Shown piece by piece: positions 1,195 to 61,260 of a stretch of 64,000 nucleotides of DNA. The notes under the pieces are model-generated. The model did no database searches. It was not told the origin of the DNA and worked only from the letters and a program-made list of their open reading frames with translations. The position numbers and the translations under genes were made by a program. Source of the DNA: Woeseiaceae bacterium (lineage in GTDB: Bacteria; Pseudomonadota; Gammaproteobacteria; Steroidobacterales; Woeseiaceae); contig JABDOQ010000051.1 in assembly GCA_013043165.1 (NCBI GenBank), forward strand, positions 62,001-126,000, written 5' to 3'. Numbering within the stretch: position 1 is the stretch's first letter; every line of letters begins with the position of its first letter.

Positions 1195-1210
1195 GCCCGG
1201 TGATCGCCTG

Positions 1211-3815: not shown

Positions 3816-3817
3816 AC

Positions 3818-31018: not shown

Positions 31019-31087
31019 GTGCCGGATCAAGGGCCTGGCCGGCCTGCTCGAATTGCGCGGGCCCGACTCGCTGGCTACAGTCACCGG

Positions 31088-34989: not shown

Positions 34990-35020
34990 TGTACTAATGC
35001 ATTAAATTAAGAATGTCCCC
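34971..35020. repeat. 50-bp palindromic repeat, copy 1 (left flank of purine operon)
   Basis: Perfect 21-base inverted arms (34971-34991 and 35000-35020, beginning GGGGACATTCTTAATTTAAT) with an eight-base centre. It is much more AT-rich than the surroundings. A second copy, identical at 44 of 50 positions and in the same orientation, lies at 49449-49498. The element encodes the C terminus and stop of the rhomboid gene. It looks like a REP/MITE-type mobile palindrome; from memory, similar GGGGACATTC palindromes occur near IS200-like (RAYT) transposase genes in Proteobacteria, but no transposase is here. Confidence 0.9.
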
Positions 35021-35119: not shown

Positions 35120-38100
35120 ATGTCCGAGTTGTTTCGGCCAATATCAATCGAACAACTCGCTTCCTGGTTATTCGCCGAACTCGAAAGCCGCAACACCATC
35201 TTTGGTATTCCTCGCCAGCACTTCTTCGTGCCACGGACAGATGCCGCGTATCGCACAAGCGCCTTTGGACACGCTTTGGATACGCCGTTTGGTCCTGCCG
35301 CCGGGCCTCACTCGCAAATGGCTCAAAACATAATTTCAGCCTGGCTATGTGGTGCACGGTACGTTGAACTAAAGACGGTACAAACGCTCGACGTACTGGA
35401 TGTAAGCAAACCGTGCATCGACATGGAGGACGAGGGCTATAACGTCGAGTGGTCGCAGGAACTAAAAGTCTACCAGTCCTTTGATGAGTACCTCAGGGCC
35501 TGGGTTCTGATTCATGCGTTGCACCACAAGCTTGGTTTTCCGGGATCGTCACCGGCGCTCGTTTTCAACCTTAGTGTTGGTTACAACCTCGAAGGACTGC
35601 TGAAACCGAACATGCAATGGTTCCTGGATCAAATGCACGACTGTTCCGACTACAAGCAGTCGATCATCGACCAGGTTGCGGCATGGTACCCGCCGGTTCG
35701 GGAACTCGATATACCGGACTGCATCTCCGATAACGTCACTCTCTCGACCATGCACGGCTGCCCTCCCGATGAAATCGAGAGCATTAGCACCTACCTTCTG
35801 CGAGAGCGTCACTTGCATACCCTCGTCAAGTGCAACCCGACACTGCTGGGCCCCGAGCGTGTGCGGACACTCCTGAACAAGGACCTGAACTTCACCGACG
35901 TGATCGTCCCGGACATCGCTTTCGAACACGACCTGAAATACTCGGCTGCCGTGCCGATGCTGGGCAGACTTCGAAAAACAGCCAGCGAGTGCGGCCTCGA
36001 ATTCGGGGTGAAGCTCTCGAATACGCTGGAAGTCGAGAACGTCCGTCCGGTGTTCGATTCGACGGAAGATATGAGTTATCTCTCCGGGCGCCCGCTGCAT
36101 GCGATCACGGTGAATCTCGCCAGCAGGCTCGCACAAGAATTTGATGGCGGACTGCCGATGTCGTTTTCCGCAGGCGCGAGTTGCTTCAACGCGCCCGACT
36201 TGCTGGCCGCCGGCATGCAGACCATCACGGTCTGTTCCGATTTGCTGAAGACCGGAGGCTACCTGCGTCTGCTCGATTACATCGACCGTGTCGATGCGTC
36301 ATTTCGCAAGGCAGGCGCCGCTGGTATCGAGGAATTCGTGCTCAAGTCCGCGAATGCGAACAACTCGTCCGCTGACATTAAAGTGGCGGCACTGTTGAAT
36401 CTGCGGCTATACGCGGATGTGGTTCGCAGCAATCCCGATTATGCGAAAAACGGCTTCGACACCTCGCACACAAAAACGTCGAGAGCCCTTGGCATGTTCG
36501 ACTGTATCAAGGCGCCCTGCGTGGACGAGTGCCCGCTGGATCAGAAGGTACCGCGCTACATGAACGCCGTGCGACAGGGCGACATCCCGGGGGCGCGTCG
36601 CATTATTCAGGGCGACAATCCGCTGCCCTGTATCTTGGGGCGGGTTTGCGACCATCTGTGTGAACAGGCCTGCATTCGCACGCACCTCGACGAACCGCTG
36701 GCGATTCGCGATATCAAGCGCTTCGTTATGGATCAGCCATCACATTCGGGCGTTGGCCGCACTCCGAAACCGGCCGGCAAGAAGGTCGCCATCATTGGGG
36801 CCGGTCCCGGGGGCATGTCAGCCGCGATTGAACTGGCCCGGAACGGACTGCAGGTCGAAATTTTCGAGCAGCGAGCCTATCCCGGCGGCATGGTCGGTGG
36901 TGCGGTACCCGAGTATCGCCTCCCCCAGTCCGTGTTCGACAAAGATTTCGGCACGCTGGAAAAACTCGCCGTCAAGATCCATTACAAGCAGCGTGTTGGC
37001 CAGGACATACAGCTGTCGCAATTGCGCCGTGATGGCTTTGACCACGTCGTCATTATGGTCGGGGCACAGCTGAGTAAAACGCTGCCTCTCGAAGGCGAAG
37101 ACTGTGCTGGTGTCGTCGACGCGCTGCAGTTCCTGCGTCAGTCCCGTGAAAATCGGGCGCTCGATATTGGCAGGCGGGTCGGCGTCGTCGGCGCCGGCGA
37201 CACGGCGATGGACTGTGCGCGCGTTGCCTGGCGTCAGAACCACAGCGATGTCACTTTGATTTATCGACGCACGGTTGACCAGATGCCCGCCGACCGCGAG
37301 GAAGTAGAGCAGCTAATTGCAGAAGGCATCGAGGTGCTCGAGCTGTCGAAGCCGCAGAGCCTTGAGGTCGAAGACGGGAAGCTGAAAGCGTTGCGGTGTC
37401 GACGCATGATGTACGCTGGTGATCGCGATGCCTCGGGTCGCAAGATTCCTCACGAGATTCCCGATTCGGAATTCAAGGTGCCGCTGGATACCCTGATTCT
37501 CGCAATCAGCCAGCATGCAGTGCTCGATTTCTTCGACCAGGAGCCAATCGAAATAAACGATCGCGGCTACATCAAGGTCGACCCTGTGACGTTTGAAACC
37601 TCGGTACCCGGCGTTTATGCCGGCGGTGACGTTGCCAATGCCGGGCCTTCTTCTATCGTGAAAGCGGCCGCGGCGGGCATAGCGATTGCCGACGCCATTT
37701 TGGGCCGCCATGCCTCCGCGCCCTGTGTGGTGGATCCTGTGCCTGTTGACACGGCGGCGCTGCTGCGTCGCAGGAGTCAAAAACAGCGACGGGTATCGGC
37801 GCCGCAAACGGAGCTCGATGATCGCGACAATTTCGACGAGGTCGTACTAACCTACTCCGGCCATCAAGCCGAAACAGAAGCTGCCCGCTGCCTGGACTGC
37901 GACAGGTATTGCAGCATCTGCGTTGGCGTCTGTCCGAACCTTGCGCTGCTGACCTATGAGACCGGATCCTTCGACGTCCGCTTGCCCGAGCTGCGGTTCG
38001 AAAAGGACGAATTCCATGTTGCGGCCGGCAAATCGTACCGGGTGATGCAGCCGTTCCAGGTCGCTGTGCTGACCGACTTCTGCAACGAGTGTGGCAACTG

Positions 38101-38503
38101 CACGACGTTTTGCCCCACGTCGGGGCGGCCGTACCGCGACAAGCCTCGCCTGTACCTTGATCGAGCCGATTTCGAGGCACAATCAGACAATGCCTTCATG
38201 GTATTCAGGGAAAAGAACGCATGGTCGCTCGATGCGCGTTTGCACGGTGCCAGGCACCGCATCGAACTCAATGGAAAACTCGACTACACCGGCCCCTCAT
38301 TCAGCGCACGGATCGATCCACTCACGTTTGAAGTCGAGCGCGCTGAAATGACGCGCCGCGACGATACTTATTCGCTGGAGCCGTGTGCAGCGATGTTCGT
38401 GCTGCTCAACGGCATCCAGCGATCTCTGCCCTTCCTGCCAGCGGCTTTGCCGGCTGATTCGGCCGCGGCAGGACGAATTGCTCATCCGGGTTACGAGCAA
38501 TGA
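35120..38503 (+). CDS. ygfK: YgfK-type FAD/Fe-S oxidoreductase (putative urate/selenate reductase subunit)
   Basis: Large iron-sulfur flavoprotein homologous to E. coli YgfK, once called a selenate reductase subunit and now tied to anaerobic urate degradation. ATG 35120 after GGGAGG. Order of parts: dihydroorotate dehydrogenase-like barrel (about 1-440; GPAAGPHSQMAQNI, STMHGCPPDEIE), a Cys-rich GltD-like entry (APCVDECPLDQKVPRYMNA, CDHLCEQACIR), FAD/NAD Rossmann domains (IGAGPGGMSAAIELA, GVVGAGDTAMDCARVA), and C-terminal 4Fe-4S motifs (CLDCDRYCSICVGVCP, CNECGNCTTFCP). 1127 residues against about 1032 in E. coli. First gene of the operon; electrons probably come from ferredoxin or NADPH. Confidence 0.9.
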   Translation: MSELFRPISIEQLASWLFAELESRNTIFGIPRQHFFVPRTDAAYRTSAFGHALDTPFGPAAGPHSQMAQNIISAWLCGARYVELKTVQTLDVLDVSKPCIDMEDEGYNVEWSQELKVYQSFDEYLRAWVLIHALHHKLGFPGSSPALVFNLSVGYNLEGLLKPNMQWFLDQMHDCSDYKQSIIDQVAAWYPPVRELDIPDCISDNVTLSTMHGCPPDEIESISTYLLRERHLHTLVKCNPTLLGPERVRTLLNKDLNFTDVIVPDIAFEHDLKYSAAVPMLGRLRKTASECGLEFGVKLSNTLEVENVRPVFDSTEDMSYLSGRPLHAITVNLASRLAQEFDGGLPMSFSAGASCFNAPDLLAAGMQTITVCSDLLKTGGYLRLLDYIDRVDASFRKAGAAGIEEFVLKSANANNSSADIKVAALLNLRLYADVVRSNPDYAKNGFDTSHTKTSRALGMFDCIKAPCVDECPLDQKVPRYMNAVRQGDIPGARRIIQGDNPLPCILGRVCDHLCEQACIRTHLDEPLAIRDIKRFVMDQPSHSGVGRTPKPAGKKVAIIGAGPGGMSAAIELARNGLQVEIFEQRAYPGGMVGGAVPEYRLPQSVFDKDFGTLEKLAVKIHYKQRVGQDIQLSQLRRDGFDHVVIMVGAQLSKTLPLEGEDCAGVVDALQFLRQSRENRALDIGRRVGVVGAGDTAMDCARVAWRQNHSDVTLIYRRTVDQMPADREEVEQLIAEGIEVLELSKPQSLEVEDGKLKALRCRRMMYAGDRDASGRKIPHEIPDSEFKVPLDTLILAISQHAVLDFFDQEPIEINDRGYIKVDPVTFETSVPGVYAGGDVANAGPSSIVKAAAAGIAIADAILGRHASAPCVVDPVPVDTAALLRRRSQKQRRVSAPQTELDDRDNFDEVVLTYSGHQAETEAARCLDCDRYCSICVGVCPNLALLTYETGSFDVRLPELRFEKDEFHVAAGKSYRVMQPFQVAVLTDFCNECGNCTTFCPTSGRPYRDKPRLYLDRADFEAQSDNAFMVFREKNAWSLDARLHGARHRIELNGKLDYTGPSFSARIDPLTFEVERAEMTRRDDTYSLEPCAAMFVLLNGIQRSLPFLPAALPADSAAAGRIAHPGYEQ

Positions 38504-38504
38504 C

Positions 38505-39827
38505 ATGAGTTCGCTGCTGATAACCAACGGCCACATTGTCACGCTCGATGCCGACAATCGGTTTATCGAGAATGGCAGCATCTACATTGATGGGCATGAC
38601 ATCATCGATGTGGGCAACTTCGCCCCTGACACCTATTCTGTGGACCGCACGATCGACGCCCGTGGCAGCCTGGTCATGCCAGGGCTGATCAACGCTCACC
38701 ATCACCTTTATTCGACCTTCGCACGCGGTTTCACGCCTCCCGGCCCGCAGGCCACGACGTTCGAAGACAATCTCAAGAGCCTGTGGTGGAAACTGGACGC
38801 CGCGCTGGATTCCGATGACGTCTACTACTCGGCATTGCTGGCGATAATGCACGCGGCTCGGGCCGGCTGCACAACGATCATTGATCATCACGCCTCGCCT
38901 TCGTGTTGCGATGGCAGCCTCGATGAAGTCGAACGGGCTTTCAGAGATGTAGGCCTGAGCGGCTGCCTTTGCTACGAGGTTTCAGACCGCAATGAGGTGG
39001 GCCAGGGCATCGAGGAAAATGAACGCTACATCCGGAAATGCCGCGCTTCGGACGACGGCCAGATGGCGGCGTCGTTCGGCCTGCACGCACTGATGACGCT
39101 CGGCACCCGGACGCTCGATCGTTGCGCTGATATCGGCAATTCCCTGGATGCCGGATTTCACGTACACGCGGCCGAGGACGAGATCGACGTTACGGTAACC
39201 ATGGAACGCTACGGGCGGCGCATCATGGACCGTTTTCTCGACTTTGCCATACCGGGTCCCAAGACAATCTTCGTGCATGGCATCCACTTTGGGCCCCGGG
39301 AGCTGGACCTGCTTCGTTCCACCGATTCGATGCTCGTGAACGCCCCCGAGTCCAATATGAACAATGGGCTCAGCGTCGCGCCTGTTCTGGACATGCTCAA
39401 GCACGGCGTAACCGTCGGCGTCGGCACTGACGGGATGTCGTCGCATGTGATTTCCCAGGCCCGCGCCATGTATCTTCATCAACGCACGTATCATCGGGAT
39501 CCGACCGTGGCCTTTACAGAGGCTTGTGAGATTCTTCTCAACAACAACCGCCAGATTTGCAATCGCCTGTTTCGTGAACCCAGAGGCATGATCGAAACAG
39601 GGCAACTGGCCGACATCATCATTCCAGACTACGTGCCGTTTACGCCGTTGAACGCCGAAACCTTCTATGGGCACCTGCTGTTTGGCCTGAGTTTTGCGCG
39701 CGTTCGCACAACCATCGCGCGAGGCCGCGTCATTGTCGACGACGGCCGCCTGATGCACCTCGACGAGGATGAAATCCGCGCACGCTGCGCCGAACAAGCA
39801 CATCGAATCTGGGCGAGAATACATTGA
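38505..39827 (+). CDS. ssnA: SsnA-type amidohydrolase
   Basis: Metal-dependent hydrolase of the cytosine deaminase/chlorohydrolase superfamily, equivalent to E. coli SsnA, which is proposed to open a purine ring after reduction of urate. Metal ligands: INAHHHLYS, HVHAAED, FVHGIHF and GVGTDGMSS. The stretch FEDNLKSLWWKLDAALDSDDVYYSALLAIMHAARAGCTTIIDHHASP (only part needed) closely matches SsnA. ATG 38505 follows the ygfK stop by one base; 440 residues, as in E. coli (442). Confidence 0.9.
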   Translation: MSSLLITNGHIVTLDADNRFIENGSIYIDGHDIIDVGNFAPDTYSVDRTIDARGSLVMPGLINAHHHLYSTFARGFTPPGPQATTFEDNLKSLWWKLDAALDSDDVYYSALLAIMHAARAGCTTIIDHHASPSCCDGSLDEVERAFRDVGLSGCLCYEVSDRNEVGQGIEENERYIRKCRASDDGQMAASFGLHALMTLGTRTLDRCADIGNSLDAGFHVHAAEDEIDVTVTMERYGRRIMDRFLDFAIPGPKTIFVHGIHFGPRELDLLRSTDSMLVNAPESNMNNGLSVAPVLDMLKHGVTVGVGTDGMSSHVISQARAMYLHQRTYHRDPTVAFTEACEILLNNNRQICNRLFREPRGMIETGQLADIIIPDYVPFTPLNAETFYGHLLFGLSFARVRTTIARGRVIVDDGRLMHLDEDEIRARCAEQAHRIWARIH

Positions 39828-39852
39828 TAAACTATTGGAATAGTTGATTTTT

Positions 39853-40734
39853 ATGGGAGGCTGGAAAAACTACCATGTGCCGGGGACGGTCGAGGAAGCG
39901 ATCGCCGTTTTGCGCAATTACGACGGCCGTGCCCGCGTTATCGGCGGCGGCACCGACCTCCTTGTGGAAACCCGACGGGGCTTGCGGCGTCCTTATGAAG
40001 CGATGGTCGACGCATCGCGTATCGCGGGCCTCAACACCATCACCCGGACCGAGGACAGCATCGTAATCGGCTGCGGCGTTACTCACACCGAGATCGTCAA
40101 CGACGTACGCATCATTCGGCACGGTCAATGCCTCGCCGAAAGCTGTAGCGTCATCGGTGGTCCGCAGGTCCGCAATGTTGGCACGCTCGCTGGTAACGTC
40201 GCCCACGCACTGCCCGCTGGCGACGGTACGATCGGCCTGTTGGCACTCGGTGGGGATGTCGAAATCGCCGGTACCTCGGGTCGACGCTGGATACCGGCCA
40301 AGGACACGTTCATCGGTCCGGGCAAAAGCGTGATTGATCGCCATCGGGAAGTACTGACAAGGCTGCGATTCGAAGCAACGCGCAGCGGCGAAGGTTCTGC
40401 ATTTCATCGCGTCATGCGGCCGCAGGGTCTTTGTCTGCCTATTATCTCCATGGCGGCACGGCTGACAGTGGAGCGTGGCACCATCACCGCCGCGAGTATC
40501 AGTATGGGGCCCGTAGGCCCGGTGCCCTGGTTCGCGGAACCCGCCGCCCAGGCGCTCATCGGAGGACCCGCGAATGAGGAGCAGTTCGAAAAAGCGGTAG
40601 CCATCACCCTCGCTAACGTTACCCTTCGGACCAGCAAGTACCGGGCTACCGAGGAATATCGGTCGGCGATGATCCAGAGCTATCTGCCGCTCATCCTGGC
40701 AAGAGCCGCCGCGCGCGCAGGAGCCAAAGCATGA
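39853..40734 (+). CDS. xanthine dehydrogenase family FAD-binding subunit
   Basis: Flavin subunit of a molybdenum hydroxylase. FAD-binding motifs RVIGGGTDLLVE and GGPQVRNVGTLAGNVAHALPAGD are clear, followed by the CO-dehydrogenase flavoprotein C-terminal domain. 293 residues from ATG 39853 (a TTG nine bases earlier is possible; ribosome site weak). It overlaps the catalytic subunit gene by four bases, so the pair forms one enzyme: electrons from purine oxidation pass Mo to 2Fe-2S to FAD and then to NAD or another acceptor, or in reverse. Confidence 0.9.
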   Translation: MGGWKNYHVPGTVEEAIAVLRNYDGRARVIGGGTDLLVETRRGLRRPYEAMVDASRIAGLNTITRTEDSIVIGCGVTHTEIVNDVRIIRHGQCLAESCSVIGGPQVRNVGTLAGNVAHALPAGDGTIGLLALGGDVEIAGTSGRRWIPAKDTFIGPGKSVIDRHREVLTRLRFEATRSGEGSAFHRVMRPQGLCLPIISMAARLTVERGTITAASISMGPVGPVPWFAEPAAQALIGGPANEEQFEKAVAITLANVTLRTSKYRATEEYRSAMIQSYLPLILARAAARAGAKA

Positions 40735-43517
40735 GCCGGCTGCAGATGACAGTGAACGACACCCCCGTCGACATCGAAGTACCGCAGTCGCGCTATTTGT
40801 CCGAGGTGCTGCGAGAGGACCTGCGACTGACCGGAACGAAAATCGGTTGTGCCGAGGCCGAGTGCGGCATCTGCACGGTGCTCGTGAACGGCACTGCGGT
40901 TGTCAGCTGCGTTTTCCCGGCGTTTAAAGCGCAGGGTGCCAGCGTGGAAACGATTGAAGGCCTCCCCCGGGACGGCAAGCTGCATGCACTGCAACAGGCT
41001 TTTCTGCAACATGGCGCGGTTCAGTGTGGTTTTTGCACACCCGGATTAATCATGACGGCCAAAGGGCTGCTGGATCGAAAGGACGCCGCCGGTGAAATCG
41101 TAACCGAAGGCGACGTCCGCACGGCGCTTAAAGACACGTATTGCCGTTGCACGGGCTATCAGAGCGTGATCAACGCCATCCTGCAGGCATCGGGCCAGGA
41201 CGTGTCGCCGTATCTCCCGGAAACCCGGTCAGCAGGGCTGGCTGTCGGCAAGGCACAGCCCAACCCGAATGCGCTGGATAAGATTATGGGCAGCGCCCGC
41301 TTCAGCGATGACTACCGTTTCCCGGGCATGCTCTACGCGCGTACAAAACGCGCCGGAGTGCCGCACGCACGTATCCGCAGCATCGATACCTCCGCGGCGC
41401 GCGATCTTGATGGCGTGCACGCCGTTTTGACGCATGAGGACGTACCGGGCCGCAATGCGCACGGCGTGGTGAGCGTTGACTGGCCGGTCCTTTGCGCGCG
41501 TAAAGTCCGCTACGTCGGCGATGCGGTGGCAATCGTGGCGGCCGAATCGCAGGAAATCGCAGCCGCGGCGCTTGATTTGATCCATGTCGATTATGAAGAA
41601 CTGCCGGCCGTGACCGATGTCATCCTGGCTACCGCGCCCGACGCACCGCTGGTGCACGAAAAGCGGCCCGACGGCAACCTGCTGAAGCACATCAAGGTAA
41701 AGAAAGGCGATATCGATTCCGGCTTTGCAGATGCGGATGTTGTTGTCGATCAGACCTACCGCACACCGACGACGGAACACCTTTTTCTCGAGCCCGAGTG
41801 CTCGATTGCTGTTCCCGCCGGCTTCGATCCAGCAAGCTTCGGCGGTCACTGTGATGCTCTCGCTGTGCGCGGTGAGACTGCGAGACACGGCAAGACGACG
41901 ATTTACGTCGGCAGCCAGATACCGTACATCGACCGCGACCAGGCCGCGGCGACGCTGGGAGTGGAGAGCGATGCGGTGCGGGTTGTCGCGACGCTCATGG
42001 GCGGTGGCTTCGGCGGCAAGGAAGATATTGCCGGTCAGATCCATGCGGCTCTGCTCGCGGAGGCCACGCAACGGCCGGTGAAAATGTTGTACTCGCGACA
42101 GGAAAGCATGCTGGTGCATCCGAAGCGTCACTCAACGATCATTCGTATTCGTACCGGTGCAACAGACGACGGCAAGTTGACCGCCGTGCAGGCAACGCTC
42201 TACGGCGACGGTGGCGCTTATGCCAGTCTCAGCGAAAAGGTGCTCACGCGTGCAACCACCCATGCGACCGGCCCGTACAACGTACCCAACGTAAAGGTTG
42301 ACTGTTTCGCCGTCTATACCAACAACGTTCCCTGTGGCGCGTTTCGGGGATTCGGCGTTACGCAGAGCTGTTTCGCGGTCGAGAGCAACATGGACATGCT
42401 CGCCGAGAAGCTGGGACTCGATCCAATAGAATTTCGCCGCATCAACGCACTCGATGTCGGCTCGGAGACATCGACCGGACAGGTATTGCGAGAAAGTGTC
42501 GGCCTGAAAGAATGCATCGACAAGGTCGAACGCGATGTGCGCGGTGAAGACTTTCGCTGGAGCTGGAATGAGGGCCATCGCCGGTTCGCGTGGGGCATGG
42601 CGGTGGGCTACAAGAATACCGGGCTGGGCGGTGGCGCACCCGACAAGGCGACGGCCGAAGTCGAGGCATGGGAAGATCCCGGCAAGGGCCTCATGGCCGA
42701 GGTACGAATCTCGTCAGCAGAAATGGGCCAGGGCTTGCCGGCCGTACTCGTCGCTTGTGTCGCGGAAGAACTGGGCATTCCCACCGAGCATGTCAGCGTG
42801 TTGCTTGGCGACACCGACTATTGCCCGGATGGCGGCCCGACGACGGCCAGCCGGCAAACCTACCTCAGCGGCAACGCGGCACGGCTGGCCGCCAAAGATG
42901 TGTCGCAGCAGCTGGCGACAGCAAATACTGCCGCGAGAATCAAAGCCAGGCATGAATACTGGGCACCCAAAACCATGCCGCTCGGTAAGGGCGGCGACAT
43001 GCACGTTGCATTCGGTTTTTGTGCGCAGGCCGTATTGTGCGAAATCGATATGCGGACCGGCGAAGTCAGCGTCCGCAAGGTCGTTGCCGCGCACGATGTT
43101 GGTCGTGCCATCAACCCGTTGACGCTGGAAGGGCAGATTGAGGGCGGCATCGTCATGTGCATCGGCTATACATTGACCGAACACTACATCCAGGAAGAGG
43201 GCAAGCCCTGGACGAATGTCATGGCGCGTTACAAGACGCCGAGCATCACGCACGCGCCCCGGATTGTCTCCCACATTGTGGAGCACAGCACCACCGACGG
43301 GCCATACGGTGCGAAAGGCGTCGGCGAATTACCCAGCATTCCGACCAGTGCGGCGATTACAAACGCAATTTGCCGCGCCACTGGCGTACGTGTTCGCAGT
43401 CTGCCCGTCGACCAGGATACGCTGCTGCGAGCCATTCGCAGCGGCGCAAGCGAAGTTGAGCTCGCATGGGGCGACCGTGCGCCTATTCCCACAATACTCC
43501 TGGGAGGGCAACAGTGA
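40731..43517 (+). CDS. xanthine dehydrogenase family protein, fused 2Fe-2S and molybdopterin subunit
   Basis: Catalytic subunit of a molybdenum hydroxylase with the small subunit fused at the N terminus. Residues 1-160 hold two 2Fe-2S sites (GCAEAECGICTVLVNGTAVVSC and CGFCTPG with CRCTG). The rest is the molybdopterin domain: GGGFGGKED, AFRGFGVTQ, SSAEMGQGLPAVLV and the catalytic glutamate in GAKGVGELPSIP. 928 residues, comparable to E. coli XdhD (956). It can hydroxylate purines to urate; in the anaerobic pathway an XdhD-type enzyme has also been proposed to act reductively. No in-frame UGA is needed, so no selenocysteine is encoded. Confidence 0.9.
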   Translation: MSRLQMTVNDTPVDIEVPQSRYLSEVLREDLRLTGTKIGCAEAECGICTVLVNGTAVVSCVFPAFKAQGASVETIEGLPRDGKLHALQQAFLQHGAVQCGFCTPGLIMTAKGLLDRKDAAGEIVTEGDVRTALKDTYCRCTGYQSVINAILQASGQDVSPYLPETRSAGLAVGKAQPNPNALDKIMGSARFSDDYRFPGMLYARTKRAGVPHARIRSIDTSAARDLDGVHAVLTHEDVPGRNAHGVVSVDWPVLCARKVRYVGDAVAIVAAESQEIAAAALDLIHVDYEELPAVTDVILATAPDAPLVHEKRPDGNLLKHIKVKKGDIDSGFADADVVVDQTYRTPTTEHLFLEPECSIAVPAGFDPASFGGHCDALAVRGETARHGKTTIYVGSQIPYIDRDQAAATLGVESDAVRVVATLMGGGFGGKEDIAGQIHAALLAEATQRPVKMLYSRQESMLVHPKRHSTIIRIRTGATDDGKLTAVQATLYGDGGAYASLSEKVLTRATTHATGPYNVPNVKVDCFAVYTNNVPCGAFRGFGVTQSCFAVESNMDMLAEKLGLDPIEFRRINALDVGSETSTGQVLRESVGLKECIDKVERDVRGEDFRWSWNEGHRRFAWGMAVGYKNTGLGGGAPDKATAEVEAWEDPGKGLMAEVRISSAEMGQGLPAVLVACVAEELGIPTEHVSVLLGDTDYCPDGGPTTASRQTYLSGNAARLAAKDVSQQLATANTAARIKARHEYWAPKTMPLGKGGDMHVAFGFCAQAVLCEIDMRTGEVSVRKVVAAHDVGRAINPLTLEGQIEGGIVMCIGYTLTEHYIQEEGKPWTNVMARYKTPSITHAPRIVSHIVEHSTTDGPYGAKGVGELPSIPTSAAITNAICRATGVRVRSLPVDQDTLLRAIRSGASEVELAWGDRAPIPTILLGGQQ

Positions 43518-44986
43518 ACCTGATACCTGAATTGCGCGAAGACGTGCGGCGGAAGAGCATGGCGCGCGCCCGTGCGCAGAAGATTGTCCTGCCCACGTTC
43601 GCCCAGCAAAAAGACCCGACGCTGGTTCCGGACGCGATAAAAACCCGCTTGAAAAGCGTTGGCCTTTGGGACCTGGACCCGGCGAACCTGTTTCGTATCA
43701 CCTGGAAAAACGAGCCCGTCGAACATGGCGGAGGCTTCGGAGAAGGAAACTGGATCGAATTTCCGCCGGCGTTGACGGGCATCGACGCGACGATCGTCGG
43801 TATTGTCGGCAACTGGTTTCCGACAGGCGCTCACAAAGTCGGTGCTGCTTACGGTTGCCTTGTGCCGCGCCTCGTAACAGGCGCCTTCGACCCCGATACG
43901 CAGAAGGCCGTATGGCCATCGACCGGCAACTATTGTCGGGGCGGTGCTTACGATTGTGCCTTGCTCTCCTGCCCGGCTGTCGCGATTTTGCCCGAGGGCA
44001 TGAGTCGCGAACGCTTCGAGTGGCTCAGGGAAATAGGCACCGATGAAATCATCGCAACGCCCGGCAGCGAGTCAAACGTCAAGGAAATCTACGACAAATG
44101 CTGGCAACTGCGTAAGGAGCGCGGCGACGGCATCGTTGTGTTCAACCAGTTCGAGGAATTCGGCAACGCGATCTGGCACTACCAGATGACGGGGTCGATC
44201 ATCGAAGAAATTTTCCAGAACCACTATGCGGAAGGACGCCGCCTCTCCGCCTATGTCAGCGCGACGGGCTCGGCCGGAACGATTGCCGCAGGCGACTACC
44301 TGCGCACGCAGCACCCCGGCATCCGTGTCGTCGCTACCGAAGCCCTGCAGTGCCCTACGCTGCTGCAGTTCGGATTCGGCGAGCACCGTATCGAAGGCAT
44401 TGGCGACAAGCACGTTCCCTGGATTCATAACGTGCGCAACACAAATCTCGTGGCCGCTGTCGATGATGAACAGACCATGCAGCTCATGCGTCTGTTCAGC
44501 GAAGACGAGGGCCACGCCTGCCTGCGCCGAGAGGGCGTCGATGATGACATGCTGCAAAACTTGAGCGATATCGGTATTTCCGGCATCTGCAATCTCGTCG
44601 CCAGTATCAAGACCGCGCGTTACTACGACATGGGCGCTCGCGACGTGATCTTCACACCGATCACCGACGCGATGAATTTATATGCATCACGCATGCAGGA
44701 AATGAGAGAAAAATACGGAGCTTACGACGCCCATCTCGCTGATCAGCACTACGGGCGTTACCTGCAGGGGACAACGGCCGACAACGTGCGGGAACTGACC
44801 TACGCCGACCAGAAAGCGCTGCATAACTTCAAGTACTTCACCTGGGTAGAACAACAGGGGCGCACATCGGATGAGTTGCGGCAGCTTTGGGATGAGGATT
44901 TTTGGCGCGAAATATTCTCTCAGGACGTCGTGGACGAGTGGGACCGCCTGATCGATGCATTCAACAATGACGGAGACGCTCGATGA
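43514..44986 (+). CDS. fold-type II PLP enzyme of unassigned function in the purine operon
   Basis: 490-residue PLP enzyme with TrpB- and cysteine-synthase-like features. The PLP lysine is probably Lys108 in FPTGAHKVGAAYG (compare TGAHKINNA of TrpB); WPSTGNYCRGGAYDCALLSCPAVAILPEGMSRERFEWLREIG matches the SSGNTG/PETMS region of cysteine synthases, and SATGSAGTIAAGDYL is the phosphate-binding glycine loop. GTG 43514 follows GGGAGG and overlaps the previous stop by four bases. It is not YgeX by sequence but sits between xdh and ygeY, so it may act on a diaminopropionate-type intermediate. The exact reaction is unknown. Confidence 0.8.
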   Translation: MNLIPELREDVRRKSMARARAQKIVLPTFAQQKDPTLVPDAIKTRLKSVGLWDLDPANLFRITWKNEPVEHGGGFGEGNWIEFPPALTGIDATIVGIVGNWFPTGAHKVGAAYGCLVPRLVTGAFDPDTQKAVWPSTGNYCRGGAYDCALLSCPAVAILPEGMSRERFEWLREIGTDEIIATPGSESNVKEIYDKCWQLRKERGDGIVVFNQFEEFGNAIWHYQMTGSIIEEIFQNHYAEGRRLSAYVSATGSAGTIAAGDYLRTQHPGIRVVATEALQCPTLLQFGFGEHRIEGIGDKHVPWIHNVRNTNLVAAVDDEQTMQLMRLFSEDEGHACLRREGVDDDMLQNLSDIGISGICNLVASIKTARYYDMGARDVIFTPITDAMNLYASRMQEMREKYGAYDAHLADQHYGRYLQGTTADNVRELTYADQKALHNFKYFTWVEQQGRTSDELRQLWDEDFWREIFSQDVVDEWDRLIDAFNNDGDAR

Positions 44987-46176
44987 GCAGCAGCTATTAC
45001 GCGGACGCACTGGAAATCAAGCCCGACCTCGTGAAATTTATGCAGGATATTATCCGCATTCCGTCGCTGAGTTCAGACGAAGGCGCCGTCGTCGAACGAA
45101 TTCGCGATGAAATGTTGAAGATCGGTTACGACGAAGTCACGGTCGATCCCATGGGCAACATTCTTGGCCGCATTGGAAGCGGGCCCCGTATCATCGCTTT
45201 CGACGGCCACTGTGACATCGTCGACGTGGGCGATCCGAAGCTCTGGGATCGTGATCCATATTCCGCTGAAATCGAGGACGGCAAACTCTACGGGCGCGGT
45301 GCGAGCGATATGAAGGGCGGCGTCGCTTCGAGTGTCTATGCGGGTGCATTGTTGAAAAAGCGTGGTATTCCCGACAACGTAACCTTTTATGCAACTGCAA
45401 CGATCCAGGAAGAAGACTGCGACGGTCTTTGCTGGCAGTACATCGTCAAGGAAGGTGGCCTGCGGCCGGACCTCGTCGTCATCACCGAACCAACCAGTCT
45501 GCGCATCTACCGCGGTCATCGTGGCCGCATGGAAATAGAAATTCACACGTCGGGGGTTTCATGCCATGGATCGGCACCCGAACGTGGCGACAACGCGATT
45601 TACAAGATGGCCGATATCATCGCCGACATCGAGAAACTCAATGATCGTTTGCCACCGCGGGATCCGCTGGGCAAAGGCACGGTTACGATCAGTGAGATTC
45701 GGTCCAGTTCGCCGAGTCTGTGCGCGGTTGCTGATGGCTGCACTATACATCTCGATCGCAGGCTGACGATCGACGAGACCGAAGACACGTCGGTCGCGGA
45801 AATCCGGGCCCTCCCGTCGGTGCAGGCAGCAAACGCAACCGTGACTGTTCTCGACTACGCGGTACCCAGTTACACCGGCCTCACCTACCCGACTCGCAAG
45901 TATTATCCAACGTGGGAAACGAAGGAAGACGAGCCACCCGTATTGGCGGCAGTCGCTGCGTACAAGCGCGCTTTCGAAAAGGAGCCTGAGGTCGGGCACT
46001 GGACGTTCAGTACCAACGGTGTCGCCACGGCCGGCATGCACCATATTCCAACGATCGGATTCGGCCCGGGCCACGAACGTTTCGCGCATGCGCCCAATGA
46101 AGAAACCGAAGTCGAACACCTTGTCTGCGCGACGGCCTTCTACACTGCCCTGGTCGAAGAGTTCGCCAGCGAATAA
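44983..46176 (+). CDS. ygeY: YgeY-type M20 family hydrolase
   Basis: Two-zinc M20 peptidase/deacylase related to E. coli YgeY, an enzyme proposed to hydrolyse a ureido intermediate of anaerobic urate breakdown. Zinc ligands and catalytic residues are in AFDGHCDIVDVGD, GRGASDMKGGVASSVY, ATIQEEDCDGL and the C-terminal IGFGPGHERFAHAPNEETEVEHL. 397 residues, full length. Its ATG overlaps the previous stop by four bases (ATGA), indicating coupled translation. Confidence 0.9.
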   Translation: MSSSYYADALEIKPDLVKFMQDIIRIPSLSSDEGAVVERIRDEMLKIGYDEVTVDPMGNILGRIGSGPRIIAFDGHCDIVDVGDPKLWDRDPYSAEIEDGKLYGRGASDMKGGVASSVYAGALLKKRGIPDNVTFYATATIQEEDCDGLCWQYIVKEGGLRPDLVVITEPTSLRIYRGHRGRMEIEIHTSGVSCHGSAPERGDNAIYKMADIIADIEKLNDRLPPRDPLGKGTVTISEIRSSSPSLCAVADGCTIHLDRRLTIDETEDTSVAEIRALPSVQAANATVTVLDYAVPSYTGLTYPTRKYYPTWETKEDEPPVLAAVAAYKRAFEKEPEVGHWTFSTNGVATAGMHHIPTIGFGPGHERFAHAPNEETEVEHLVCATAFYTALVEEFASE

Positions 46177-46195
46177 ATCCAGGAGATTCATCAAA

Positions 46196-47197
46196 GTGAC
46201 TCGCACAGCAAAACCGATTCCTGATCATATGAAAGGCCGTGACTGGCTAATGACGCAGGACTGGTCGGACGAAGAAATCGAACTCGCGCTCGATACGGCC
46301 GACCAGTTGAAAGATGAGTTCAAGAGCGGCGTGCCGACCTTGCACCTCGCGCAAAAGACAGCGTTCCTGATATTCTTTGACAAGTCTACGCGCACACGTA
46401 ACTCATTCGAAGCGGGCATGACACAGCTCGGCGGGCACGCGCATTTCATCGACTCGGAAACATCGCAGATCGCCCACGGCGAGAGCCCCAAGGACATGGG
46501 CACGATACTCTCCGGGTATGGGCACGGCATCATGATTCGTCACGACCTGGTTCCCGGTGAGGGCCAGTCCTACATGCGAAATGTCGCGGAATGGGCAACT
46601 GTTCCGGTCATCAATATGCAGTGCGACGTCGACCACCCGTGTCAGACCCTGGCCGACCTGATGACGATTCGTGAGGAATTCGGCAAAGATCTCAGGGACC
46701 TTAAAATCGCGGTGTCCTGGGCCTACGCGCCCAGCTATGTCAAGCCAATGTCGGTACCGCAGGGATTGATCATGCTCATGACGCGCTTCGGCATGAACGT
46801 GACGCTCGCTCATCCACCGGAGTACCAGCTTATGGATGAGCCGATGAGTTTGGCACGCGACAATGCGGCCCGTTCCGGCGGGTCCTTCAGCGTAGTGGAT
46901 AACATGGAAGATGCCTTCGCCGACGCTGACATCGTCTATCCGAAGAGCTGGGGTGTGGAATCGCTGTTTAGCAAGCCCGATCATGCGATGAAAGTCGCGC
47001 AGCAATACCGAAACTGGATGTGCGACGAGGCGATGATGGCGCGCGCGAAGGAACAGGCGATTTATATGCACTGCCTGCCGGCCGACCGCGGCTTTGAAGT
47101 AAGCGACGCGGTTATCGACGGCCCGCGGTCACGCGTTTACCCGGAGGCCGAGAACCGCTTGCATACTGCGAAAGCCCTGATGGCGCTAACGATGTAA
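46196..47197 (+). CDS. ygeW: knotted carbamoyltransferase, YgeW-type
   Basis: Transcarbamoylase with all active-site motifs: carbamoyl phosphate loop DKSTRTRNSFEAGM, DVDHPCQTLADL and MHCLPADRGFEV. WAYAPSYVKPMSVPQGL is the region that forms the knot and is shared with YgeW and N-acetylornithine carbamoyltransferase. GTG 46196 lies ten bases after AGGAG. At 333 residues it is shorter than E. coli YgeW (396) and ends like an ornithine carbamoyltransferase (VYPEAENRLHTAKALMAL). In the pathway it would run backwards, phosphorolysing a ureido compound to carbamoyl phosphate for the adjacent kinase. Confidence 0.85.
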   Translation: MTRTAKPIPDHMKGRDWLMTQDWSDEEIELALDTADQLKDEFKSGVPTLHLAQKTAFLIFFDKSTRTRNSFEAGMTQLGGHAHFIDSETSQIAHGESPKDMGTILSGYGHGIMIRHDLVPGEGQSYMRNVAEWATVPVINMQCDVDHPCQTLADLMTIREEFGKDLRDLKIAVSWAYAPSYVKPMSVPQGLIMLMTRFGMNVTLAHPPEYQLMDEPMSLARDNAARSGGSFSVVDNMEDAFADADIVYPKSWGVESLFSKPDHAMKVAQQYRNWMCDEAMMARAKEQAIYMHCLPADRGFEVSDAVIDGPRSRVYPEAENRLHTAKALMALTM

Positions 47198-47212
47198 GGC
47201 GGAGTTAATCAG

Positions 47213-48184
47213 ATGACAACGCCTGAAGCAGGCAAAAACAGCAACGCCCCCCTGGTCGTCATAGCTATTGGCGGTAATTCGCTGATTAAAGACCGCGAAC
47301 ACATGGATGTGCTGGATCAATATCGTGCCGCCGGCGAGACAAGTCATCACATCGTACCTGTCGTCAAGCAGGGTTACCGTGTATTGGTGACGCACGGTAA
47401 CGGCCCGCAGGTCGGTTTTATTTTGCTGCGCTCCGAGTTGGCCAGAAATGTTATCCACCAGGTGCCGCTGGCCAACTGCGTTGCGGATACCCAAGGCTCG
47501 ATCGGCCTGCAGATAGCCCAAAGTCTGCAGAACGAGTTCATCCGCCAGGGTGTGGATCAGCCTGTGGTCGCAATAGTCACCCAGTCGGTGGTCGACGAAC
47601 AGGATCCGAGTTTCAGCAAGCCGAGCAAGCCGATCGGTCCGTTCATGTCGGAAGCAGAAGCTCGGAAACACGAGAAAGAGGACGGTTGGGCAATAGGCGA
47701 AGATGCCGGTCGCGGATGGCGTCGACTGGCTGCATCGCCGGCGCCACTCGAGATTATCGAGTTGCCGGCGATTCGCACGCTGCTCGACAGCGGCGAGCTC
47801 GTTATTGCAGCCGGCGGTGGTGGTGTTCCAGTCGTCTACAAACCAGACGGCACGTTACGACCCCGCCCGGCGGTGATCGACAAGGATGCTGCATCCTGCC
47901 TGCTCGCCTGTGAGCTGGACGCATCGGTGTTTATCATTTCCACCGACGTCGACAAGGTGGCGCTGAATTTCGGAACACCGCAACAAGTCGACATCGACCA
48001 CATGGACGTGGCCGAGTGCCGCCGATACCTCGAGGAAGGGCATTTTGCGCCGGGCAGCATGCGACCGAAGATCGAGAGCGCGCTCAGGTTTCTGGAGCAA
48101 GGTGGCAGGCAAGTGATCATTACTCAGCCCCATCACCTCGAAGGGGCTTTGCAAGGAATCAGTGGGACACACATCGTTCCCTGA
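47213..48184 (+). CDS. yqeA: carbamate kinase (YqeA/ArcC-type)
   Basis: Makes ATP from carbamoyl phosphate and ADP, the energy-yielding end of ureide breakdown. Motifs: VVIAIGGNSLIKD at the N terminus, VLVTHGNGPQVGFILLRSE, VIAAGGGGVPVVYKPDG, VIDKDAASCLLA and GSMRPKIESALRFLEQGGRQVIIT. 323 residues; ATG 47213 preceded by GGCGGAG. 15 bases after the carbamoyltransferase gene, so the two enzymes are expected to work in sequence. Confidence 0.92.
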   Translation: MTTPEAGKNSNAPLVVIAIGGNSLIKDREHMDVLDQYRAAGETSHHIVPVVKQGYRVLVTHGNGPQVGFILLRSELARNVIHQVPLANCVADTQGSIGLQIAQSLQNEFIRQGVDQPVVAIVTQSVVDEQDPSFSKPSKPIGPFMSEAEARKHEKEDGWAIGEDAGRGWRRLAASPAPLEIIELPAIRTLLDSGELVIAAGGGGVPVVYKPDGTLRPRPAVIDKDAASCLLACELDASVFIISTDVDKVALNFGTPQQVDIDHMDVAECRRYLEEGHFAPGSMRPKIESALRFLEQGGRQVIITQPHHLEGALQGISGTHIVP

Positions 48185-48196
48185 AGGAGCAAGACG

Positions 48197-49450
48197 ATGA
48201 ACGGATATCGCTGCTTTTCGTGCGCCGCAACGCAGGATGCGGATTTCGCAGGGTGCCTGTGCCCGTCGTGTGGCGGCAATCTCGATATCACGTACGACTA
48301 TGAAGCGGTGGCCGAGCATATCGAGCAGCTGGGCGCCGACAGAGCCCGGTCGCTGTTTTCCTATGCGCCGTTTCTTCCTGTGAAAACTCCGCGCTCCCGC
48401 TTCCCGTTGCGAATCGGAGCAACACCGCTGTATGCAGCACGGCGACTGGGACAATTGCTGGGCCTGCGCAATCTTTACCTGAAGGACGATACTGTCAACC
48501 CCAGCGCGTCCAGCAAGGACCGCGCCAGCGTCATAGCGGTTCATCGAGCCATGGATATCGGCGCGGACATCGTGTCTGTCGCCAGTACCGGCAACGCAGG
48601 ATCTTCACTTGCCTGTGTCGCGGCCGCCGTCGGCATGCGGGCCATCGTGTTCGTTCCGGAAACTGCACCTGTTGCGAAACTCACACAGGCACTGTCATTC
48701 GGCGCCACGGTACTGGCCGTTCGCGGTAACTATGACGACGCCTTCGACCTGTGCCGTACGGCTTCCGACGAATTCGGCTGGTTCAATCGCAGCACGGGCT
48801 ACAACCCGTTCACTCGGGAAGGCAAAAAAATCTGTGCATTTGAAATATGGGAGTCGCTGGACGGACGAGTCCCGGACCGAATCGTAGTGCCGACTGGTGA
48901 CGGCAATTTGCTGAGCGGCATGTGGAAGGGCTGGTGCGACCTGCAAGGGGTCGGTCTGATCAATCGCATGCCGAAAATCGACTGCGTCCAGTCCGAGTCC
49001 AGCGCAGCGATCAGCAACACGGTAAACAGAATTCGCGACAGCGGAGCTTCCAAAACAGACTGGACGACAGTTGCGGTAGACGTGGTCAATGCCAGCACGA
49101 TCGCCGATTCCATCGCGGTCGACCGGCCGCGAGATGGTCTGGCGGCGGTTAGAGCCATAGTCGAGTCTGGCGGCGATACCATAACGGTTTCGGATGAGCA
49201 GATTCTCGCTGCCATTCCCGAAATGGCACGCCTTTCCGGCATCTTTCCCGAACCCGCCGCAGCGGCACCCTGGGCAGCCGTTAAGCAGATGCGGCGGGAC
49301 GACAGGATCGAAACGGACGAACTCGTCGTCTGCCTGGTATCGGGAAGCGGCCTCAAGGATATTGGTAGCGCGCAGAAAGCAGCCGGCGAAGCGCTGTTGA
49401 TCGATCCCGCCATCGAAGCCGTCAGAAACGCCCTCGCCTCGTCACTATAG
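48197..49450 (+). CDS. threonine synthase-like PLP enzyme with N-terminal zinc ribbon
   Basis: Fold-type II PLP enzyme, 417 residues. The start CFSCAATQDADFAGCLCPSCGG is a CxxC...CxxC zinc ribbon as in ThrC-related proteins; the PLP lysine is in NPSASSKDRAS, with ASTGNAGSSLACVAAAVGM the substrate loop and VPTGDGNLLSGMWKG the phosphate loop. AAGGAG precedes ATG 48197. Last gene of the operon; its stop (49448-49450) is the first bases of the second palindrome. A plausible replacement for YgeX (diaminopropionate ammonia-lyase), but no residue proves it; a standard threonine synthase is unlikely given the context. Confidence 0.8.
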   Translation: MNGYRCFSCAATQDADFAGCLCPSCGGNLDITYDYEAVAEHIEQLGADRARSLFSYAPFLPVKTPRSRFPLRIGATPLYAARRLGQLLGLRNLYLKDDTVNPSASSKDRASVIAVHRAMDIGADIVSVASTGNAGSSLACVAAAVGMRAIVFVPETAPVAKLTQALSFGATVLAVRGNYDDAFDLCRTASDEFGWFNRSTGYNPFTREGKKICAFEIWESLDGRVPDRIVVPTGDGNLLSGMWKGWCDLQGVGLINRMPKIDCVQSESSAAISNTVNRIRDSGASKTDWTTVAVDVVNASTIADSIAVDRPRDGLAAVRAIVESGGDTITVSDEQILAAIPEMARLSGIFPEPAAAAPWAAVKQMRRDDRIETDELVVCLVSGSGLKDIGSAQKAAGEALLIDPAIEAVRNALASSL

Positions 49451-49498
49451 GGACATTCTTAATTTAATGTATTAATACGTTAAATTGAGAATGTCCCT
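49449..49498. repeat. 50-bp palindromic repeat, copy 2 (right flank of purine operon)
   Basis: Copy of the element at 34971-35020, same orientation, 44 of 50 positions identical. Arms begin AGGGACATTCTTAATTTAAT; the centre GTATTAATAC is itself palindromic. The two arm mismatches (T opposite G) would still pair as G-U in plus-strand RNA. The stop codon of the upstream PLP gene and, on the other strand, the last residues (RDILNLTY) and stop of the DapA-like gene lie in it. Confidence 0.9.
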
Positions 49499-50401
49499 AC
49501 TCGCGTCGTCGAGGCGGCCGGCCAGTTCGCGCCCCTTCTCGTCGGACAAGGCCATCAGCGGCGCACGCACATTGGCCCAGCGTGGATCGCCAGTGGCCAA
49601 TGCGAGCAAGTACTTCTGCGCCGGAATCGGCGCATACTCCTGTACTAACTTTCGAAAGCGTTTGACGGTCTCGTGCAATTTCTGCGCGGAACTCACGTCG
49701 CCCTGATCGTACAGGTCGACCACCCTGGCGATAGCGCCCGCATTAATGTTGGCGGTCGCCGTGATGCAGCCGGGCGCACCAAGCCCCAGTGCATCAACTA
49801 GTCGTAATTCTGAACCGGGATAGACCGTCAAGCCGTCAATCTCAAGCAGCGCCCGCGTGTTTTCCCAGTCATTGGAACTGTCCTTGATACCGACTATCTG
49901 TTCCGGGAAATCGCGTCGCAAATGCGCAGCAAGGGCCGGCGGCACGCCAACGATCGCTATCGGTGGAATGTGGTAGAGGAGGATTTTTGCGTCCGAACCG
50001 ATTGTCGCGATCAGCAGCCTGAAATATTCGTATAAGCCGTCCTCGGTGACGCCCTTGTAATAGAACGGCGGCAACGTCAGGACCGCCGCGCAGGCCATGT
50101 CGAGACAGGCGCGTGACAAGCGAGCCGTATCGGCGACATTCGACAGCCCGGTGCCCGGGATCATCCTGGCCGGATCTATGCCGCCGTCAATGAGTGCCCG
50201 TATCGCGGCTATGCGCTCATCGATACCAACCGACAGCGCTTCGCCCGTGGTGCCGAATGGCGCAATGCCGGCGCAGCCCTGCTCGAACAGCCATTTTGCG
50301 TGCGCGACATAAAGGTCCGTTGCCACCGAATGATCCTGGTTGAACGGCGTCAGGATCGGCGCGATAACCCCCCGAAGTGTCATGCTGCGATTGTCACTCA
50401 A
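49472..50401 (-). CDS. DapA/N-acetylneuraminate lyase family aldolase
   Basis: Class I aldolase-fold protein of the dihydrodipicolinate synthase family, 309 residues. Conserved: FGTTGEALSV substrate loop, LYHIPPIAIVG with the catalytic tyrosine, and the Schiff-base lysine in QIVGIKDSSNDW. The family includes DapA, NanA and 2-keto-3-deoxy sugar aldolases; substrate undetermined. Start uncertain: a TTG at 50401 has GAGG five bases upstream, and ATG 50383 is the alternative. The C terminus runs into the palindrome, replacing the original ending. Convergent with the purine operon; no clear link to it. Confidence 0.82.
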   Translation of the reverse strand: MSDNRSMTLRGVIAPILTPFNQDHSVATDLYVAHAKWLFEQGCAGIAPFGTTGEALSVGIDERIAAIRALIDGGIDPARMIPGTGLSNVADTARLSRACLDMACAAVLTLPPFYYKGVTEDGLYEYFRLLIATIGSDAKILLYHIPPIAIVGVPPALAAHLRRDFPEQIVGIKDSSNDWENTRALLEIDGLTVYPGSELRLVDALGLGAPGCITATANINAGAIARVVDLYDQGDVSSAQKLHETVKRFRKLVQEYAPIPAQKYLLALATGDPRWANVRAPLMALSDEKGRELAGRLDDASRDILNLTY

Positions 50402-51757: not shown

Positions 51758-51980
51758 GAGGAGCACTCCTTTTTGCCCTTTTCCCGTCAGGAACGGGTCC
51801 AGTAACAGAATCGAATTTGTCGGGACCGCAGCCGTTAAAGCAAGTTGATGCGTCGCAAGCACTACCTGAGCGGCTCGCCTTTATCCGCTCTTTCAATGCT
51901 TCGTCAAACGCGATGATTCGCAGCGCAATCATCGCCGCGATCGCAACTGTCGCAATGATAACGCCAATAATGAAGTTCAT
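51747..51980 (-). CDS. small Cys-rich membrane protein in Rnf2 operon (NqrM-like?)
   Basis: 77 residues: one membrane helix (residues about 3-24) followed by a cytoplasmic tail with CDASTCFNGCG. Its position, overlapping the rnfA stop by four bases, and layout (one helix plus clustered cysteines) recall NqrM, which inserts iron into the NqrD/NqrE pair of Na+-NQR, homologues of RnfE/RnfA. The Cys spacing differs, so I treat the link as a hypothesis. No sequence family recognised with confidence. Confidence 0.7.
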   Translation of the reverse strand: MNFIIGVIIATVAIAAMIALRIIAFDEALKERIKASRSGSACDASTCFNGCGPDKFDSVTGPVPDGKRAKRSAPHAS

Positions 51981-53208: not shown

Positions 53209-53211
53209 GTT

Positions 53212-56257: not shown

Positions 56258-56283
56258 GTTAAGAAGCCGTCATCCTCTGCCCG

Positions 56284-61245: not shown

Positions 61246-61260
61246 GCGGGGTCCCTAGGC

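Follow-up and report, generated by a model that had tools for sequence, protein, structure and literature searches.

A Woeseiaceae operon of probable reductive urate breakdown lacks YgeX and carries two other pyridoxal-phosphate enzymes

Reductive urate breakdown was reconstituted by Li et al. (2025; PMC12507026), who describe conversion of urate to yanthine by XdhD–YgfM with NADH, followed by YgfK and SsnA, then HyuA, YgeW, YgeY and finally YgeX, with pyruvate as the product. According to that report, the reactions were demonstrated for E. coli and C. difficile homologues, YgeX accepts both D- and L-diaminopropionate, residue E606 is proposed for yanthine formation, the xanthine dehydrogenase (XDH)- and YgfK-type reductases are read as NADH-linked, and, in the legend to its Fig. 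3, YgeX is scored by the Pfam family PF00291. It places SsnA in Pseudomonadota, Bacillota, Chloroflexota, Actinomycetota, Spirochaetota and Elusimicrobiota, and the occurrence of the pathway in other phyla is thus already known. Percudani (PMC12990295), reviewing this and the parallel work of Liu et al., raises the question of a gut adaptation as against an invention of earlier date, and favours the former. The gene set had been noted earlier by Barba et al. in 2013 (PMC4016543) and by Haft and Self in 2008, who linked it to SelD (PMC2276186).

Here we describe an operon of this kind in a 64,000-nucleotide stretch of a Woeseiaceae bacterium of marine-sediment type (contig JABDOQ010000051.1, positions 62,001 to 126,000 of the forward strand; hereafter the window), part of a 3.19-Mb draft genome (G000). 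The operon itself is confirmed, and its variant terminal enzymes, two pyridoxal 5′-phosphate (PLP) enzymes that we call PALP1 and PALP2, are the part most worth following. Read from the open reading frames of the window, the operon comprises nine tightly packed, co-directional genes on the plus strand at 35120–49450, with intergenic distances, in order, of 1, 16, −4, −4, −4, 19, 15 and 12 bases when PALP1 is started at the GTG at 43514 and the carbamoyltransferase at the GTG at 46196. A sequence-only reading had reported this architecture, and gaps of −4 to 19 bases bear it out. Of ten operon regions from relatives, six hold the full set of nine genes in this order and four are truncated at contig ends; this argues that the arrangement is beyond chance.

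Families were called by NCBIfam profile scores (in bits) against curated cut-offs and domains by Pfam, and where a cut-off is reached we treat membership, like gene content, gene order and the joint occurrence of PALP1 and PALP2 with SsnA and YgeY, as observed. Three pathway enzymes exceed theirs: the 1,127-residue flavin/Fe–S reductase YgfK (35120–38503; TIGR03315, 879 against 835.3 over residues 3–1051), the amidohydrolase SsnA (38505–39827; NF005540, 494.9 against 444; TIGR03314, 464.9 against 455.5) and the M20 hydrolase YgeY (44983–46176; NF009555, 560.4 against 321). The YqeA-like carbamate kinase (47213–48184) passes NF009007 (379.6 against 266) and misses TIGR00746 (340.7 against 358). 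An XDH-type pair and a compact YgeW-like carbamoyltransferase fall below their cut-offs, so that the gene labels of the sequence-only reading hold in full for YgfK, SsnA and YgeY and in part for the rest. Identities to the E. coli proteins are 37% for YgfK, 32% for SsnA, 27% for XdhD, 55% for YgeY, 39% for YgeW and 43% for YqeA. The same reading had called the operon complete and its gene set that of the E. coli cluster; neither description survives, since HyuA is absent from the operon and YgeX from both operon and genome.

PALP1 (43514–44986), whose GTG start overlaps the preceding stop codon, is a fold-type-II PLP enzyme of a distinct family, and PALP2 (48197–49450) is a threonine-synthase-like PLP enzyme. 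Both had been taken for PLP lyase-like enzymes; they are PLP enzymes, but that neither is YgeX had been missed. On the DAL model NF006058 (cut-off 276) PALP1 scores 11.4 and PALP2 44.8 bits, both lie outside the YgeX clade in a tree, and a search of the genome at E ≤ 1e-20 returned no YgeX. PALP1 is nearest in sequence and fold to enzymes of the O-acetylserine sulfhydrylase (OASS) and cystathionine β-synthase (CBS) type, reaches 92 bits where the CysK/OASS model TIGR01139 requires 351, and carries about 85 C-terminal residues past the aligned core. In the tree it stands as a separate clade on a long stem, a position at which the tree program warns of long branches meeting. PALP2 is predicted with a pLDDT (predicted local distance difference test) of 91.0 and has a ThrC fold. 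The putative PLP lysines (K95 in PALP1, K107 in PALP2) and a Ser-Thr-Gly-Asn stretch are invariant in the PALP1 (45 rows) and PALP2 (24 rows) alignments. Where both proteins have Thr-Gly-Asn, E. coli YgeX has Asp-Gly-Asn, the Asp of which we take to act on the D-substrate. The superfamily profile PF00291 matches PALP1 and PALP2 as well and therefore cannot separate them from YgeX.

A scan of genome contigs with a PALP1 alignment returned at least 587 relatives, and the best 80 were kept; by record title these loci fall in at least 12 phyla. Within the examined flanks of up to 10 kb, PALP2 accompanies 40 of the 80 loci (no more than 400 bp away in 17) and YgeX a single one. At least two of YgfK, SsnA, Xdh, YgeY and YgeW/carbamoyltransferase are found in 31 loci and at least three in 19. 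These 19, six of which belong to the window's own kin (L023–L028), represent eight phylum-level groups by title: Pseudomonadota, Gemmatimonadota, Bacteroidota, Verrucomicrobiota, Acidobacteriota, Thermodesulfobacteriota, Chloroflexota and Ignavibacteria. For 49 of the 59 loci with no SsnA in view, corresponding to 48 genomes, the genome was searched for SsnA elsewhere: it is present in 43 at E ≤ 1e-60, in 42 at 290 bits or more and in 31 above its cut-off. PALP2 reaches at least 390 bits in 41 of the 48 (lowest 399, next 339), nine of which gave rows to the PALP2 model itself; YgeY exceeds its cut-off in 37 and YgeX in seven. The idea that PALP1 genes standing alone belong to some other pathway is weakened by the SsnA found elsewhere in 42 of the 48. 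Neighbour clustering at the PALP1 loci of Elusimicrobia turned up non-metabolic genes (CpXC, poly-A polymerase) and was abandoned as a lead; many short 'conserved' frames in that clustering were antisense to real genes.

Among 60 genomes related to that of the window, its own included, PALP1 occurs in 15, all of one genus, and SsnA at 310 bits or more in 16, the next scores (242 bits or less) being a background of other amidohydrolases. The two coincide in 14 genomes (Fisher 1e-10, kinship ignored), and the three mismatches (G028, G029 and G035) have the gene at or near a contig end, so the partner could simply have fallen off. The closest PALP1 relatives (L023–L028, 92–79% identity) come from metagenome-assembled genomes titled Woeseiaceae (the 92% record), Gammaproteobacteria, Chromatiales and Lysobacterales. 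Across 398 Pseudomonadota genomes, own genome included, SsnA (E ≤ 1e-90) and PALP1 (E ≤ 1e-60) each occur in two; this is the base rate for SsnA, and it is a figure for Pseudomonadota only. The second SsnA genome (G273), in which PALP1 and PALP2 are both absent at the thresholds applied, is not the one with the second PALP1 (G291). Within its phylum the operon is rare and patchily distributed, a pattern consistent with horizontal gain. Beyond the window's kin, the nearest PALP1 relatives (L029, L030 and L031, 68–73% identity) are in records titled Kiritimatiellae and Verrucomicrobia, which may point to where so patchy an operon was acquired from. One genome that also has an operon copy carries a PALP1 paralogue (45% identity) next to a gene read as transketolase-like (L022, G014:C76).

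These observations suggest that the operon probably specifies reductive urate breakdown driven by NAD(P)H, with PALP1 and PALP2 jointly carrying out the last step, to pyruvate and ammonia. The urate part of this proposal follows from YgfK, SsnA and YgeY, which exceed their cut-offs and whose homologues have reactions reported by Li et al. (PMC12507026); each reaction, its substrate and direction, and how PALP1 and PALP2 would share the work, we infer. The XDH-type pair would reduce urate to 2,8-dioxopurine (yanthine), which YgfK would reductively dearomatize; SsnA would open the pyrimidine ring, and a hydantoinase or dihydropyrimidinase encoded elsewhere would open the remaining one. Next, one ureido group would leave as carbamoyl phosphate through the YgeW-like enzyme and carbamate kinase, with one ATP formed, and YgeY would cleave the other ureido group to give 2,3-diaminopropionate. 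Because YgeY is retained, diaminopropionate should still be made, and PALP1 and PALP2 together would take the place of YgeX in converting it to pyruvate and ammonia. Since YgeX takes D- and L-diaminopropionate alike, the presence of two PLP genes may be explained most simply by a pair of stereospecific enzymes, or by a racemase with a lyase. The sequence-only reading had connected the operon with anaerobic urate breakdown; a link to the reductive, uricase-independent route is well supported by YgfK, SsnA and YgeY together with the XDH-type pair, the YgeW relative and the kinase, and the urate reading is likely, though mostly known and without the completeness claimed. That the operon lies outside the enteric setting is not new in outline, SsnA having been placed in several phyla (PMC12507026).

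Several observations weigh against this pathway. The XDH-type FAD-binding subunit (39844–40734; PF00941 and PF03450) is 30% identical to E. coli XdhB, has no match to YgfM at E ≤ 1e-3, and scores 157 and 153 bits on XdhB models with cut-offs of 310 and 287. Its gene overlaps by four bases that of the fused 2Fe–2S/molybdopterin (Mo) subunit (40731–43517), which has the domain order of XdhD and scores 786 against 830 on TIGR03311. That subunit is almost equally near E. coli XdhD (27%, 283 bits) and XdhA (30%, 276 bits). A check for E606 gave no support for XdhD-type selectivity, as the subunit lacks the insertion of E. coli XdhD that carries this residue. Two motifs that we take to hold XDH substrate residues resemble, in the Mo subunit, those of ordinary XDHs. 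The carbamoyltransferase likewise scores under its curated cut-off, and the operon has no HyuA. A genome search for an NCS2 permease (PF00860) was negative, and this speaks against a purine uptake like that of E. coli.

Much of this would also be expected if the cluster were a reductive pathway for some other N-heterocycle, with an ordinary xanthine or hypoxanthine dehydrogenase, or an enzyme for another heterocycle, feeding a related ring to YgfK and SsnA. That both of these reach curated cut-offs speaks for urate, as does the presence of another XDH-type enzyme in the genome: a canonical-looking one, typed by reading rather than by profile, lies on contig C72. Three Bacteroidota loci (L051, L070 and L095) pair a fused enzyme of 850–900 residues with another of canonical look and about 755 residues, suggesting that the two XDH types share the work; given these loci and the separate enzyme on C72, the fused operon enzyme need not be a xanthine oxidizer. 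C. sporogenes XdhAC, too, is unlike E. coli XdhD and yet starts the pathway (PMC12990295), a parallel that assumes the same fused type. On balance we regard a substrate other than urate as rather unlikely.

The gap at HyuA could be filled in trans. The sole match in the genome above the D-hydantoinase cut-off (TIGR02033, 600 bits) is a dihydropyrimidinase-like gene on C72, outside the operon, with 38% identity to E. coli HyuA; judged by its neighbours, read as PydX-like and an NCS1 permease, it would belong to a pyrimidine-type cluster, and its product could supply the HyuA step. HyuA or a dihydropyrimidinase occurs in 11 of the 80 PALP1 loci, which argues that the PLP genes are not substitutes for it. 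The carbamoyltransferase (46196–47197), whose best start is the GTG at 46196 with AGGAG upstream, scores 264.5 on NF005538 (cut-off 453), still its best-scoring model. It shares the WxYxPSY and DHPxQ motifs with E. coli YgeW and groups with the YgeW clade at 86/95, which is not strong support; the closest solved structure found is 3q98, a named transcarbamylase that we take to be E. coli YgeW.

Further points of the same adverse bearing concern PALP2 and the wider distribution. PALP2 passes the threonine-synthase model TIGR00260 (thrC) narrowly, at 175.2 against 167.1, and no second PALP2-like gene appears in the genome at E ≤ 1e-40, a search that need not reveal a ThrC of the E. coli type (none shows in G273 either). 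With its ThrC fold, PALP2 could thus be the cell's own threonine synthase, standing by chance at the end of the operon. Chance placement accords poorly with PALP2 in half of the 80 PALP1 loci and with a carbamate kinase in view in ten of 20 fetched PALP2 regions, one of which (L185) also has PALP1; moreover, PALP2 misses NF006050 (262.5 against 303), and several genomes hold an extra, lower-scoring ThrC-like gene (about 200–340 bits). We therefore think a housekeeping role improbable. Among the 48 PALP1 genomes, six lack an SsnA that reaches 290 bits; one of the six (G070) is a single chromosome record, in which PALP2 lies near a carbamoyltransferase, a carbamate kinase and a yqeB-like gene and YgeY exceeds its cut-off. 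G291 has its partial PALP1 match with no SsnA at E ≤ 1e-90. PALP2 also occurs in five of the seven YgeX genomes and the two are not mutually exclusive; YgeX is found in 5 of 41 genomes with PALP2 and in 2 of 7 without, a difference that is not significant (p 0.27).

The two genomes with YgeX and without PALP2 are G086 and G093, the YgeX match of the latter having one internal stop, and in G093 (locus L078) the YgeX gene directly follows PALP1. For this reason PALP2 as the counterpart of YgeX, with PALP1 as a further step, fits the data, even though the statistic is not significant. The same locus, keeping PALP1 where YgeX replaces PALP2, suggests a separate step for PALP1 and so lends something to a different assignment, in which PALP1 handles β-substituted alanines: it would eliminate urea from albizziin, bypassing YgeY, or use diaminopropionate as the donor in a β-replacement, for example to cysteine. 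The fold and tree position of PALP1 with OASS, cyanoalanine synthase and CBS-type enzymes point the same way, as do O-ureido-L-serine synthase structures (3x44 and 3x43) among its matches. YgeY above its cut-off in 37 of 48 PALP1 genomes argues that an albizziin side-step is not general, however, and there is no sulfur gene among the nine of the operon; this assignment strikes us as rather unlikely. A bolder possibility, held with less assurance than the pathway as a whole and somewhat less likely than not, is that PALP1 is an unrecognized family in a largely environmental form of reductive urate breakdown spread over many phyla, and that PALP1 and PALP2 divide the D/L task of YgeX, for example as a D-specific or racemizing enzyme beside an L-specific lyase, or run another terminal sequence, which would make the YgeX ending one of two.

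The names of the NCBIfam models, 'selenate reductase subunit YgfK', 'selenium metabolism protein SsnA' and 'selenium-dependent XDH', would suit a cluster for selenium metabolism, with a selenate reductase or selenium hydrolase, and Haft and Self tie such genes to SelD (PMC2276186). We give this very little weight: SelD, YqeB and YqeC are all missing from the nine genes, a statement about the operon only, SelD not having been searched genome-wide, and the homologues act in vitro on urate intermediates, as reported by Li et al. (PMC12507026). Word searches of two Woeseiales papers gave no mention of purine, urate or xanthine. PALP1 or PALP2 in urate clusters left no sign in the literature searched by titles and abstract openings, with subscription papers mostly outside that scope. 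The altered terminal enzymes thus appear to be the new part, the rest of the urate reading being largely known, and the substitution may have been overlooked through scoring by PF00291.

The uricase check that had been proposed was run: PF01014 has no match in the genome at E ≤ 0.001, other uricase types not having been searched genome-wide. The window does encode a 204-residue protein (20389–21003) that matches PF06181 (Urate_ox_N) at 66.5 bits (cut-off 26.9), with no NCBIfam match at E ≤ 0.1; its length appears insufficient for a cytochrome-linked urate oxidase of the kind that the PF06181 name denotes. Near-identical 48-bp palindromes with GGGACATTCTTAATTTAATG arms flank the operon, one at 34972–35019, ending 100 bp before the ygfK start, and one at 49450–49497, adjoining the PALP2 stop codon, with arms that differ by two bases. 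Their half-site does not occur elsewhere in the window with up to three mismatches allowed; one further copy was found in 197 kb sampled from the own genome (L218:11108–11155), the 92% relative G009 has a similar palindrome upstream of its ygfK (L204:11364–11411), and none was seen in the regions of nine other relatives. They may be REP-like (repetitive extragenic palindromic) or transposition-related. Promoter scans stayed at chance level for sigma-70 (6 found, 5.9 expected) and gave 12 sigma-54 matches with at most one mismatch (10.3 expected), none of them upstream of ygfK.

The operon had been placed beside two Rnf complexes and linked through them to fermentation. Two sets exist: one (51977–62121, with a gene like that of pyruvate:ferredoxin oxidoreductase (PFOR) inside) begins 2.5 kb downstream, but the other (974–6194, with an RnfB candidate at 1792–2301) lies about 29 kb upstream, so that 'beside' fits loosely. 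The fermentation link is unsupported, YgfK and the FAD subunit carrying NAD(P)H/FAD-type domains of their own by Pfam. The downstream set has a 1,653-residue PFOR-like protein between its RnfC and RnfB genes and a ferredoxin-NADP-reductase-like gene, and the whole (50897–62121) may be an unusual cluster of Rnf and 2-oxoacid:ferredoxin oxidoreductase, judging by its genes. Convergent with the operon at 49472–50401 is a gene resembling dihydrodipicolinate synthase and 2-keto-3-deoxygluconate aldolase, which also adjoins PALP2 in the relative G033 (L202, 74% identity). A tryptophanase/tyrosine phenol-lyase family enzyme (31019–32458; PRK13238, 698 bits) lies 2.7 kb before the operon, and maturation genes for ribosomally synthesized and post-translationally modified peptides, HvfB (MNIO) and HvfC, score above cut-off at 7339–8959, with a DUF1841 gene before and a DoxX gene after them.

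Urate reduction has so far been treated mainly as a gut trait, and many PALP1-bearing records are titled as sediment, groundwater or other environmental samples, one being from goat rumen. A form found in many phyla with terminal enzymes of its own would bear on the question of gut adaptation or older invention that Percudani poses (PMC12990295). If there are indeed two endings, the YgeX ending of gut bacteria would be one of them and not the general one. For pathway prediction, scoring by PF00291 merges three enzyme families, and surveys of urate-degrading genomes may mis-call the last step; PALP1 offers both a specific marker and an uncharacterized enzyme with few candidate substrates.

Set beside the E. 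coli ygeWXY-hyuA-yqeA and ygfK-ssnA-ygfM-xdhD genes, the window operon shares YgfK, SsnA and YgeY above cut-offs, an XDH-type FAD subunit with a fused FeS/Mo partner, a YgeW-like transferase and carbamate kinase. It differs in being a single nine-gene operon in a new order, without HyuA, YgeX, a purine permease, yqeB/yqeC or mocA, and in having two other PLP enzymes, a compact YgeW relative, an XdhB-like FAD subunit and no E606 region. The variant of C. difficile and C. sporogenes (XdhD or XdhAC, UacX and UacY), compared by the descriptions in the papers, likewise has an XDH-type first enzyme, SsnA and YgeY, whereas the window has a FAD subunit, YgfK for UacX, and the YgeW-like enzyme and carbamate kinase for UacY. 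Chloroflexota PALP1 genomes also have SsnA, and several Anaerolineae loci keep the order carbamoyltransferase, carbamate kinase, PALP2, PALP1, but with interposed BMP-type transporter genes and SsnA often on another contig. Like YgeX, PALP1 and PALP2 are fold-type-II PLP enzymes that would stand at the end of the pathway; unlike it, they score 11–45 bits on its model, lie outside its clade and have Thr-Gly-Asn for Asp-Gly-Asn. With O-acetylserine sulfhydrylase and cystathionine β-synthase PALP1 shares its fold, and it is set apart from them by the 92-bit score against a cut-off of 351, its C-terminal extension and the long stem of its clade.

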